A stretch of DNA of 64,000 nt from NCBI GenBank assembly GCA_903919075.1, contig CAIXGR010000077.1:1-64000 (forward strand), read 5' to 3'. Every line of letters starts with the position of its first letter. Within the stretch, counting starts at the first letter, position 1. The stretch comes from an uncultured Bacteroidota bacterium (GTDB lineage: Bacteria > Bacteroidota > Bacteroidia > Chitinophagales > LD1). Positions 5,942 through 42,215 of this stretch are shown one piece after another. A model generated the notes under the pieces. The model saw nothing but the letters and a program-made list of their open reading frames with translations, did not search any database and had not been told where the DNA came from. Both the position numbers and the translations under genes were made by a program.

Positions 5942-6625
5942 ATGACATTACTCCAAATTGTAGCCGATACATCGGCTGCTGCTAAAGGAATAGCCCAACA
6001 GCAACCCCCTATTAACCTGTTCGAATTGCTACTAAAAGGTGGACCTGTAATGATACCTATTGGTATACTTTCGGTTATAGCTGTCTACCTCATTATCGAA
6101 AAATTTATTGTTATAAACAGGGCTTCAAAAATAGACCCTGCATTTATGGCGAACATAAAACACATGTTGCTTGATGGTAAAACCGAAGCCGCGTTAAGCC
6201 TATGCCGTAGCACCAACATGCCCATTGCCCGGTTACTCGAAAAAGGAATTAAGCGCCTTGGCAAACCGGTTAAAGAAATTGAAAGTGCAGTTGAGAATAC
6301 CGGTAAGCTCGAAATCTATAAGCTTGAAAAAAATCTCTCTTACCTGGGCATTATTGCCGGTATAGCACCCATGTTTGGTTTCGTAGGAACTATTGCAGGA
6401 GTAATAAAGATTTTCTATAATATTTCATTAGCCGATAACATCAGCATTAGTTTAATTGCCGGTGGTCTTTATGAAAAGATGATTACCTCAGCATCAGGTT
6501 TATTGGTGGGTATAATTGCACACATAGGTTTTCATTATTTAAATGCGATGCTGGACCGTGTAAGTTTTCAATTAGAAAGCACCACAGTTGATTTTATTGA
6601 CTTAATACAAGAACCAACAAAGTAA
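5942..6625 (+). CDS. exbB: MotA/TolQ/ExbB proton channel family protein
   Basis: This is the inner-membrane proton-channel subunit that energises TonB. The N-terminal membrane segment (about residues 36-52, VMIPIGILSVIAVYLIIEKF) is followed by the cytoplasmic part (ALSLCRSTNMPIARLLEKGI). A conserved pair of segments follows (LSYLGIIAGIAPMFGFVGTI and SISLIAGGLYEKMITSASGL), the hallmark of the family. The length of 227 residues fits. It is the first gene of an exbB-exbD-tonB cluster. The spacer of 111 bp to exbD contains a REP-like palindrome. Confidence 0.92.
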   Translation: MTLLQIVADTSAAAKGIAQQQPPINLFELLLKGGPVMIPIGILSVIAVYLIIEKFIVINRASKIDPAFMANIKHMLLDGKTEAALSLCRSTNMPIARLLEKGIKRLGKPVKEIESAVENTGKLEIYKLEKNLSYLGIIAGIAPMFGFVGTIAGVIKIFYNISLADNISISLIAGGLYEKMITSASGLLVGIIAHIGFHYLNAMLDRVSFQLESTTVDFIDLIQEPTK

Positions 6626-6654
6626 CTTAGAAGTTAGAAGTGGGAAAGTTTGAA

Positions 6655-6711
6655 GGTGAGCGAGGTGGGGAGCGGTTCTCCCTTTAGGGAGTTAGGGGGT
6701 AGCGGGAGCTG
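6655..6711. repeat. REP-like palindromic repeat (copy 2)
   Basis: The core palindrome CTCCCTTTAGGGAG (6678-6691) is followed by TTAGGGGGTAGCGGGAGC. The core and tail match the copies at 57965-58017 and 63499-63546. It lies between exbB and exbD, so it would be transcribed as part of the operon mRNA. Confidence 0.7.
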
Positions 6712-39682: not shown

Positions 39683-39743
39683 AATTGAGGGAGTCTAGTT
39701 TTCATTATGTTTTGATTTGCATAAAGTATACTATCTTTATAGT

Positions 39744-40199
39744 ATGTGCAGGCGATTCACCTTTTTGTTAGGTTTATTAATGTTGTGTTTTTGTGCTTGC
39801 AAGAAAGAGAAGCCAATACAACAACCGGTTCCAATTCCAGTTCCGGTTCCTTCGGCTTTTTCGTGGATGGGAACAACATATGTCTGCCAACATGTAGGGG
39901 TTAGTACGGTAACTAATTTATATAATTATACCACCACTAAGCATTATTACTATTTTACTGATACTGTGTATATCAAAAACGTTGATAATGATAGCGTAGG
40001 CATCTCTTGGTCTTACTGGCAATTATACCGTGATGCACCAGTTAATGACACCGTATTTTCATATTGTAATTACTACACACATGCTGAATGTTTGTCGTTT
40101 TCTAAAAATAAGCCAGATAGTTTATTCTATAGTTTGAGCGAAGAAATAACGCCGGCTGAAATGTACTCGGATAATGCTATTGGGTATAAAATTCATTGA
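39744..40199 (+). CDS. Small lipoprotein of unknown function
   Basis: This is a 151-residue lipoprotein. The ATG at 39744 gives a standard signal (MCRRFTFLLGLLMLCFCACK) with a Cys lipobox; the frame is open nine codons further upstream. After a Pro-rich linker (QQPVPIPVPVPSAF) comes a Tyr/Thr-rich beta domain. It ends at a TGA (40197-40199). The same frame then stays open to 40427, through the left inverted repeat of the neighbouring cassette, so the gene may have been shortened at its 3' end. No family is recognised. Confidence 0.6.
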   Translation: MCRRFTFLLGLLMLCFCACKKEKPIQQPVPIPVPVPSAFSWMGTTYVCQHVGVSTVTNLYNYTTTKHYYYFTDTVYIKNVDNDSVGISWSYWQLYRDAPVNDTVFSYCNYYTHAECLSFSKNKPDSLFYSLSEEITPAEMYSDNAIGYKIH

Positions 40200-40260: not shown

Positions 40261-40313
40261 CTGTAACACCTGGCACACCCGGCACAGTTCATAAAGCCGT
40301 TCCACCTGTTCCA
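40261..40313 (+). repeat. Left inverted repeat of the ATPase cassette
   Basis: This 53-bp sequence holds the direct sub-repeats CACCTGGCA and CACCCGGCA and then ACCTGTTCCA. It matches the reverse complement of 41873-41925 with five mismatches. It lies 8 bp beyond the ATPase stop codon. Confidence 0.85.
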
Positions 40314-40321
40314 ATAAATGG

Positions 40322-41341
40322 CTATGTTTTTAGCCCGTTTCTTTTTAATACCCGGTTTACCCTTACGTGGTTAGTGTTTAACTGCCTGGCAATTTCGCGT
40401 TCAGATAGGGTGGGGTTTTCGTTGTAAAGTGTAATAATTTGCGTGTCTAAGCTATCCATTTCATCTTCGGTAAGCCGCCTTAAGTGCAAATGTTCGCTTT
40501 GGGTGTTGTGTGCAACAAAGCGTAAAAAGTTAAAGTTCTTTTCAAGCCCGCATACTATTACGTTATCGGCACCATATATTATTTCGGTGGCCCGTGCTTT
40601 AATTTGCTTAATGTAGCGGGTGTTGGGCAGGGTATAGCTATTGCCCAGTGCAAAAATGCTATCGGCAAAGTTGCCCAGGTGCTTGCTGCCGGCAAGGTCG
40701 TTTATGGTAATGGGGTTAGCGGCATTGCGCTTGGGGGTATGTGCCAGCGCCAGTATTGATAAGCCGTATTTACGCTTTAGGCTGATTAGGGCATTCATTA
40801 AAGGCAGTGCTTCTTTAGCGGTATCGGTACTTTGCGTTTTTAAAAACGTTACGTTATCAATAATCAAAATTTTTGATTGATGTTCGTTCACCGCATGTTC
40901 AATAGCAATAAGCAGTTGGTTTTCGAAATCGCCAATGCCTGCGTATTGGGTATTAATTTCAATACGAATAAAATCGCGGTCGAAAATATAATGGTTACTA
41001 TAGTCGGCCGAGTAGCGTTTTTCGAACTGCTTGGCCGAAAGCTCGAAATCGAAATACAACACCTTTTGCCGTGCAGCTTCAATCGTAAAATAGTTTTCGC
41101 TTTCGCCCTTGCTTATGGCATTGGCCATTTGCACCGCCAGTATTGATTTGCCTAAGTTGGTATCGGCAAATAAAAAGCACAATTCGCCTTCATGCCACAG
41201 CTCGCCAAAAAGCATTTTAGGCACCGGGCATTTTTTAGCTTCTTCCATCCATTGGTTAGCGGTTTTAATGTTGAACATATTTTTTTCATCATCCTTAAAA
41301 TTGGTTTGTTGAAGAATAATTTGGGCAATGCTGTCATTCAT
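40322..41341 (-). CDS. RecA/RepA-like AAA ATPase with C-terminal HTH
   Basis: This 339-residue ATPase is of the RepA/AAA_25 (RecA-fold) type. The P-loop is FLFADTNLGKSILAVQMAN (Gly64-Lys65-Ser66). A YFDFELS block (96-102) follows, then Walker B KILIIDNVTF (157-166), then ALAHTPKR (198-205) and DLAGSKHLGNFADSIFALG (215-233). A helix-turn-helix (about 311-335, LSEREIARQLNTNHVRVNRV) closes the protein. Plasmid RepA hexamers share this core, but there is no primase or origin-binding partner here. Its start overlaps the stop of the coiled-coil gene by 4 bp. It probably binds DNA, perhaps at the flanking repeats. Confidence 0.85.
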   Translation of the reverse strand: MNDSIAQIILQQTNFKDDEKNMFNIKTANQWMEEAKKCPVPKMLFGELWHEGELCFLFADTNLGKSILAVQMANAISKGESENYFTIEAARQKVLYFDFELSAKQFEKRYSADYSNHYIFDRDFIRIEINTQYAGIGDFENQLLIAIEHAVNEHQSKILIIDNVTFLKTQSTDTAKEALPLMNALISLKRKYGLSILALAHTPKRNAANPITINDLAGSKHLGNFADSIFALGNSYTLPNTRYIKQIKARATEIIYGADNVIVCGLEKNFNFLRFVAHNTQSEHLHLRRLTEDEMDSLDTQIITLYNENPTLSEREIARQLNTNHVRVNRVLKRNGLKT

Positions 41342-41775
41342 AGTTTGGGGTTTTTATGGTTTGGGTTTATTTTATTTTCTATCATTTCATGCAAAAACAG
41401 GCCATTATCAATAGCCGCATGCATGCAAAATTGCAACTCGGCAACCTGCTGGTTTAAGTGCTGTATTTGGTAAAGCATTTGGTGGTAGTTTTCGGTATTG
41501 GGTATACCGGTGTTATCAGGCGGGGTTTCGTAGTGTTTTTGCAGCTCTATTATATATTGTTCAAAATCGTAAAGCAGTTGCAGCTCTTCAGTAAGCCGGT
41601 GCATTAGTTTTTGCAGCTTCAGGGCTTCGGCTATGGGCATGGCAAATAAATCTTTTTGCTCCAATGCGTTTAAATGCCTGGCCTTATCTACTATCAACCT
41701 GTGAAAACCCGCCATTTTATTTTGATGCAGGTATTGCCAAAAGCCAGGTTGGTTATATGATTTTGGATAAGACAT
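41338..41775 (-). CDS. Small helical/coiled-coil partner of the ATPase
   Basis: This 145-residue protein is not recognised as any family. It is almost entirely helical: residues about 15-75 (KMAGFHRLIVDKARHLNALE and IAEALKLQKLMHRLTEELQL) and about 95-130 (YHQMLYQIQHLNQQVAELQF) look like coiled coils. It has no signal peptide, membrane segment or zinc motif. Translation is coupled to the ATPase by a 4-bp stop/start overlap, so the two products are likely to work together, for example as loader and regulator. The upstream leader contains a strong stem-loop and the right inverted repeat. Confidence 0.75.
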   Translation of the reverse strand: MSYPKSYNQPGFWQYLHQNKMAGFHRLIVDKARHLNALEQKDLFAMPIAEALKLQKLMHRLTEELQLLYDFEQYIIELQKHYETPPDNTGIPNTENYHQMLYQIQHLNQQVAELQFCMHAAIDNGLFLHEMIENKINPNHKNPKL

Positions 41776-41820
41776 AGCTATTTTAATTGCCGTGGCGTTT
41801 TATAAAAAAGCATCCCCTCT

Positions 41821-41843
41821 GCGATACTGAGAGGCAGTGTCGC
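41821..41843 (-). promoter_or_regulatory. Stem-loop in the leader of the cassette operon
   Basis: GCGATACTG pairs with CAGTGTCGC (one wobble pair) across the loop AGAGG. It lies between the right inverted repeat and the first gene of the operon. It could be an RNA control element or a protein-binding site. Confidence 0.45.
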
Positions 41844-41872
41844 TAAGTATAAAACAGTAAATAGTGCTTAAG

Positions 41873-41925
41873 TGGAACAGGTGGCAAGGCTGTATCAACT
41901 GTGCCAGGTGTGCCAGGTGTTACAG
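41873..41925 (-). repeat. Right inverted repeat of the ATPase cassette
   Basis: This is the mate of 40261-40313. The sub-repeat TGTGCCAGG occurs twice in a row in slightly different phase (CTGTGCCAGG and TGTGCCAGG), so the arm is itself iteron-like. It lies about 98 bp upstream of the first cassette gene. Confidence 0.85.
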
Positions 41926-42088: not shown

Positions 42089-42215
42089 GGTGCCTCACCC
42101 CGTCTCGCTTCACTTGCCACCCCTCTCCACTTTGTGGAGAAGGGAATACAACGGCTGTTTCCTTATCCATGCAATGGAGAGGGTGGCCGCGCGTAGCAAG
42201 GCCGGGTGAGGCCAC
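42089..42215. repeat. REP-like palindromic repeat (copy 4)
   Basis: GTGCCTCACCCCGTCTCGC begins the copy. It contains the hairpin TCTCCACTTTGTGGAGA, then ATGGAGAGGGTGGCC and GCCGGGTGAGGCC. A 22-bp piece (42090-42111) recurs inverted and identical at 63426-63447. An open frame runs through it into the sensor kinase gene, but the peptide it would encode has no kinase-like features. Along with the cassette leader, the right arm and the AT box, it accounts for the 520-bp gap before 42298. Confidence 0.7.

Follow-up and report, generated by a model that had tools for sequence, protein, structure and literature searches.

A two-gene ATPase cassette between inverted iteron arrays in an uncultured Bacteroidota bacterium: a probable stand-alone replication module descended from integrative mobilizable elements

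Introduction

The window, a 64-kb stretch of DNA from an uncultured Bacteroidota bacterium, contains a pair of genes enclosed by inverted repeats. A layout of this kind raises the question of what the unit is, where it comes from, and whether its ends are termini of a moving element or sites bound by its own protein. It had originally been predicted to be an undescribed mobile or domesticated element, the ATPase of which recognises the iteron-like ends.

Structure of the cassette and its ends

The left end of the cassette, a degenerate iteron array on the plus strand (40261..40313), is identical at 48/53 positions to the reverse complement of the right end, which is located upstream of the operon on the minus strand (41873..41925). 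Ungapped extension lengthens the match to 55/65 (40261-40325 / 41861-41925), and the pair reached E = 2.6e-13 in a whole-genome search. The inverted alignment scored 81, as compared with 14 in direct orientation, 11 for the self-palindrome and no more than 19 in shuffles (n=200); therefore, the ends are truly inverted copies and not palindromes. The left end includes the iterons TGTAACA (40262-40268), TGGCACA (40271-40277), CGGCACA (40280-40286), GTTCCAC (40299-40305) and TGTTCCA (40307-40313), which are degenerate relative to those of related loci. Despite the divergence of the iterons from one another, the two ends are 91% alike.

Between the ends there are just two genes, which are read from the minus strand and share 4 bp. 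The stop codon of the ATPase gene lies 8 bp from the edge of the left repeat, the 65-bp version of which overlaps this codon, and a distance of 86-98 bp separates the right repeat from the start of the operon, upstream of which it is located. On the 3' side of the ATPase gene there are only the left end and a gene at 39717-40199.

Neither of the two proteins carries a transposase, nuclease or recombinase domain or matches Y1 (HUH) transposases, and neither gene inside the repeats matches relaxase families. The integrase, HTH_17 and primase-like (Zn-ribbon/DUF6371) genes of related elements have no match anywhere in the 64-kb window. No target-site duplication was found at the ends of the cassette or of its gene-less relative on contig C18, described below; the window flanks CCAAGCGCTA and GGCTGCTTTA have no common direct repeat at the junctions, and old insertions can lose such repeats. 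As DNA hairpins, the window ends fold no better than shuffles (z 0.13 and 0.32), and the hairpin was rejected as their functional form; better folding than in shuffles was obtained for the palindromic arrays of L027 (z -3.2) and of the Tn4555-type element (-4.7) and for the C18 arm (-6.4).

Just outside the cassette, before a histidine kinase gene, there is a long imperfect inverted repeat (42092-42212, 71% over 55 nt) with arms GCCTCACCC...CTCTCC and GGAGAGGG...GGGTGAGGC. This downstream kinase was used to look for an empty site of the window copy in 30 relatives; no true empty site was found, gyrA never being adjacent to the kinase gene in the loci fetched.

Cassette proteins

The ATPase gene (40322..41341, minus strand) encodes a 339-aa RepA/DnaB-type RecA-fold protein with a C-terminal three-helix HTH. 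It matches Pfam family PF13481 (AAA_25) with E = 1.2e-19, and alignment A1 locates Walker A (GKS, 64-66) and Walker B (...D162). The HTH is weak in Pfam and forms a confident three-helix unit at residues 292-334 in the AlphaFold model, which has a pLDDT of 83. The nearest solved folds of the RecA-type core are those of T7 gp4, DnaB, RadA and KaiC. By its modelled RecA fold and its Walker motifs, the protein appears to belong to the DnaB/RepA-type hexameric helicase superfamily, with hexamer formation and unwinding being predicted. A defence role considered after PADLOC analysis was dropped, the only match being a weak one of mad8 to part of the Walker region (E 0.0013).

The partner gene (41338..41775, minus strand) encodes a coiled-coil-like protein of 145 aa. 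In 60 related genomes it has a single relative, which immediately precedes the ATPase gene of an integrase-bearing element in G011, a genome of the same genus. The ATPase closest to that of the window (61%) likewise comes from an integrase-bearing element of this genus in which the coiled-coil gene is present. Both window genes are open and intact, with the Walker motifs kept, and the cassette genes are present in one copy in the window's own genome.

The structure described in the original prediction was thus borne out, the inverted ends by alignment, shuffles and genome search, their position beside the ATPase stop codon and the operon leader by the distances given above, and the content of an ATPase with C-terminal HTH and a coupled coiled-coil gene by gene calls, Pfam and AlphaFold. 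The reported lack of a transposase agrees with the domain content of both proteins.

Relationship to integrative mobilizable elements of Bacteroidota

Relatives of the ATPase are patchily distributed, being found in 10 of 100 related genomes and in 15 of 299 from the order, with several copies in some genomes. Loci of named genomes were examined for the best 80 of 467 relatives. The usual gene order in this set comprises a tyrosine integrase (Phage_int_SAM_5), an HTH_17 excisionase-like gene, the ATPase, and a Zn_ribbon_16+DUF6371 gene; RteC genes are also among those preceding the ATPase in related elements, and mnmE is next to the integrase in 16 of these best 80 loci. Relatives found in the plasmid database belong to Tn4555/cfxA-type elements. 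The order described for Tn4555 is TnpA, integrase, TnpC, excisionase, AAA ATPase, DUF6371 and cfxA (PMC13183296). The ATPase belongs to a replication-type module that is conserved among integrative mobilizable elements of Bacteroidota, the kin of Tn4555. The idea of an undescribed element was therefore not supported in its original wording, since the gene family is known from Tn4555-type and related mobilizable elements.

Two circular "plasmids" of Bacteroides, L188 (CP103138.1, 10,057 bp) and L191 (CP103131.1, 11,598 bp), contain a Tn4555/cfxA-type gene set. Both look like the excised circle of such an element, the 10,057-bp one being from B. fragilis. According to a 2017 review, no study had yet addressed how integrative mobilizable elements replicate after excision (PMC5704250), and no account of the role of the ATPase in Tn4555 was found in the literature searched, which mostly did not extend to subscription papers. 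One relative of the ATPase (L037:9107-10040, G011:C47) is split across two reading frames and is probably a decaying copy.

Iteron arrays and the recognition helix

An array, defined as at least four copies of one 7-mer, is located at the ATPase stop codon in 49 of the best 80 of 467 relatives, against 1.0 expected from random positions of the same loci; at other ORF stops arrays occurred in 23 of 877 cases. The arrays are usually palindromic, with about three copies one way and three in the opposite direction, and their motifs vary by element, including TGTAACA, TGTTCAC, TTCGTAC, TGTTTCA, TGTTCCA, TGTCCCA, TGTACCAC and others.

Individual recognition helices are paired with individual iterons, namely SHMKVSR with TGTAACA, SLGAVNKYL with TGTTCAC, SEGAVRKWI with TTCGTAC, SAATVNR with TGTTTCA, and TNHTRVKR with TGTTCCA. 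The pair STVNR/TGTCCCA was found in two distant lineages, the stand-alone locus L034 and the Tn4555-type element. With the ATPase core controlled for, iteron distance correlated with recognition-helix distance in 33 dereplicated loci (partial Mantel r=0.57, P=2e-4), while the value for the ATPase core given the helix was -0.01. The five 12-residue blocks that co-vary best with the iteron are all within the HTH; some arrays start within the last codons of the gene, yet past the helix. Since the recognition helix is the only part of the protein that co-varies with the iteron, the cassette ends are very probably binding sites of the cassette's own ATPase, predicted to be read by its HTH, in line with what had been proposed for them.

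An integron-like reading was also considered, with the array as attC, as arrays often follow a stop codon. It was rejected, there being no integron-type feature and the match between ATPase and iteron fitting this position better.

Stand-alone forms of the ATPase

Other stand-alone ATPases were found in genomes G012, G020, G023, G025 and G028. On a tree of 90 ATPases the stand-alone forms correspond to at least four changes, the labels of L127 and L163 resting on short contigs that end near the gene, and forms without integrase or primase appear from this phylogeny to have arisen several times. At L027, a fragment of an integrase C-terminus (39% identity) is located beyond prfC at 6479-6655, 4.5 kb from the stand-alone ATPase. 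Because of the short contigs (L127, L163) and of this fragment at L027/L127, some of the stand-alone loci may be decaying elements. Between stand-alone pairs other than the window, dN/dS is 0.06-0.24, indicating that stand-alone forms in relatives are maintained by purifying selection; the window gene is outside this set, its nearest relative being saturated at synonymous sites.

A second array or inverted end is present in 8/8 stand-alone loci (the window, L027/L127 and L030-L035), but in only 2 of 53 complete elements within the fetched flanks, the latter being loci that have a clear iteron and carry integrase, HTH_17 or primase-like genes. In the window, L033 and L034 neither end is palindromic and the pair is clearly inverted, while the arrays of L030/L031 are palindromes whose copies can be matched either way round. 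What is new is this recurrent stand-alone variant with two inverted arrays and a readable recognition code, whereas the replication module itself is known.

Rearrangements and gene-less arrays in related genomes

Signs of REARRANGEMENT were found in related genomes as array-bounded gain or loss, inversion, cargo exchange and gene-less arrays. Between the same neighbours, G023 has an array-ATPase-array unit and G020 has one array (presence/absence, L030 versus L178). In G025 and G020 the unit occupies one common locus and faces opposite ways, with the inversion extending from array to array (L032 versus L035), and the cargo slot of this unit holds different genes, one of them DzbB-like. In addition, two arrays of G023 lie between genes whose G020 counterparts have no array nearby. 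Host homologous recombination between repeats would be enough for the G023/G020 gain or loss and for the G025/G020 inversion with its cargo exchange.

At L163:1280-2819, directly after the ATPase gene, a Fic/DOC-family gene is located between two inverted TGTTTCA arrays. Locus L030 contains a Y1_Tnp (RAYT-like) gene (L030:8246-8800) with its own REP-like palindromes (GTAGATGAAGG...CTTCTACGGAC) at 40-155, 388-529 and 1278-1332, which lie beside the iteron arrays yet are distinct from them.

All 15 TGTNCCAC gene-less pairs of G025 carry motifs of the two ATPase types of this genome. Pairs of TGTTCAC arrays number 25 in G023 and 12 in G028, with none in the ATPase-less G026, G027 and G029; however, 5 pairs in G020 and 4 in G025 occur without a TGTTCAC-type ATPase, so the match between motif and ATPase is not absolute. 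A gene-less pair with ends 79% identical to the window ends is present in the window's own genome at G000:C18:43-465, and among the TGTTCCA arrays of this genome only the window and C18 rise above chance matches. No inner sequence is common to gene-less pairs and gene-bearing units, which share arrays only.

The proposed search of the genome with the ends and the proteins thus recovered a gene-less relative of the ends, but no further copy of the genes. As for the predicted mobile nature of the element, its layout does recur at other loci and in other genomes, while movement of the window copy is no more than plausible, as neither a target-site duplication nor a close relative with an empty site was found for it and its genes occur once in the genome.

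Comparison with known systems

Tn4555/cfxA-type elements encode a homologous ATPase (42% identity), and six TGTCCCA copies form an array where its gene ends. Unlike Tn4555, the window unit encloses no gene for an integrase, excisionase, TnpC, DUF6371, mobilization or cargo, and its arrays are two in number and inverted, as against a single one. Thus, of the features of an integrative mobilizable element of the Tn4555/NBU kind, it has the ATPase and the stop-codon array, but not the integrase and Zn-ribbon/DUF6371 gene. RepA of RSF1010 (IncQ) is a hexameric RecA-fold helicase acting with iterons; it is not known to have an HTH and needs a separate iteron binder, RepC, whereas here binding and helicase domains are predicted to be in one protein.

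SGI1 is similar to the parent elements in combining an initiator gene and an iteron origin directly downstream of it within an integrative element at mnmE/trmE, and replication of its excised form by rep and the iteron oriV was shown experimentally (PMC7433901). It differs in being a complete island and in its Rep, which is an initiator of the RepA_C type that uses 17-bp iterons and not an HTH-bearing RecA-fold helicase. The RAYT/REP-REPIN systems resemble the window in having a gene flanked by inverted copies of palindromic repeats that occur elsewhere without the gene (PMC3116915, PMC8266576). However, RAYTs are Y1 (HUH) transposases, which neither cassette protein is, and the copy numbers of the cassette are far lower. 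From insertion sequences and DDE transposons the window differs in having neither a transposase between the repeats nor a target-site duplication.

Proposed origin and alternative explanations

On balance, the window unit is probably a stand-alone replication module descended from a Bacteroidota integrative mobilizable element, a reading for which sequence comparison shows descent, architecture, helix-iteron co-variation, recurrence, and purifying selection in relatives. We infer origin function, priming and ATPase-driven rearrangement as follows. In the parent element, the C-terminal HTH of the ATPase would bind the array of 7-bp iterons with which the ATPase gene ends, and the ATPase would load there as a hexameric helicase, so that the excised circle begins to replicate. 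Because the half-arrays are opposed, two hexamers would come to stand back to back, and the adjacent Zn-ribbon/DUF6371 protein probably primes. The window form would have lost integrase and primase, keeping the gene pair intact and having a second inverted array on the other side, and would thereby be bounded by two copies of its predicted binding site. Helicase loading most likely turns the arrays into hot spots of template switching or recombination, which would provide a slow, recombinase-free route of spread and would explain the gain or loss, inversion and cargo exchange seen in relatives. Against this explanation are the degenerate iterons of the window and the folding of its ends, no better than that of shuffles; moreover, rearrangements at repeats are possible through host homologous recombination alone, and the single array of L178 could be the older state. 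A broader proposal is put forward with little confidence, namely that there is a class of recombinase-free mobile cassettes, in which a helicase-initiator lying between inverted copies of its iterons would disperse both genes and gene-less derivatives through array-directed replication and template switching. Such cassettes would have arisen repeatedly from integrative elements, out of their replication modules, and every lineage would have a helix/iteron code of its own.

It is conceivable, though unlikely, that the unit is instead a true mobile element, with the inverted arrays for its termini; it and gene-less derivatives would then be moved around the genome in a RAYT/REP-like manner by the ATPase, either unaided or helped by a recombinase in trans. 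The occurrence of the same layout at several loci and genomes is consistent with this, as are the gene-less C18 pair with its 79% identical ends in the window's genome, the G025 gene-less pairs of matching motif, and the two arrays of G023 missing from the vicinity of the G020 counterparts. These points are offset by the lack of target-site duplication at the window and C18 ends, by one gene copy per locus type and low copy numbers, by proteins without nuclease or recombinase domains, and by gene-less pairs and gene-bearing units having arrays rather than inner sequence in common. The absence of integrase and primase, the degenerate window iterons and the integrase fragment near the stand-alone copy L027 would suit a passive relic, that is a decayed integrative element, the replication genes of which were left with a duplicated, functionless origin array. 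Such a relic is quite unlikely in view of two open, intact genes with Walker motifs kept, of the dN/dS of 0.06-0.24 that reflects purifying selection on stand-alone pairs elsewhere, of the second array at every stand-alone locus as against 2/53 complete elements, and of ends that are still 91% alike though their iterons diverged from one another.

Plasmids are known to show incompatibility based on iterons. A discussion of handcuffing is given in PMC7433901. By analogy with iteron-type incompatibility, the arrays and the ATPase might act as a decoy that hinders replication of incoming related elements and so serves as a resident defence, to which the recognition code shared with complete elements of the same genus, and the DzbB-like defence gene and Fic gene in array-bounded slots, would point; the presence of several ATPases together in each of G025, G028 and G011 makes this improbable. 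Ordinary autoregulation, with the right end as operator and the left end as terminator or second operator, would agree with the location of the former just upstream of the operon and of the latter at its stop codon. It is nevertheless very improbable, as complete elements have the array at the stop codon only and not at the operon start, and arrays occur also without an adjacent ATPase gene.

Significance

For the preferred reading of the cassette as a replication module descended from an integrative mobilizable element, the recognition code names a candidate initiator and a candidate origin for Bacteroidota elements, among them Tn4555, which carries cfxA, and allows the iteron bound by a given ATPase to be predicted. 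The recurrent form with two inverted arrays is testable as a unit that may rearrange genomes without a recombinase.
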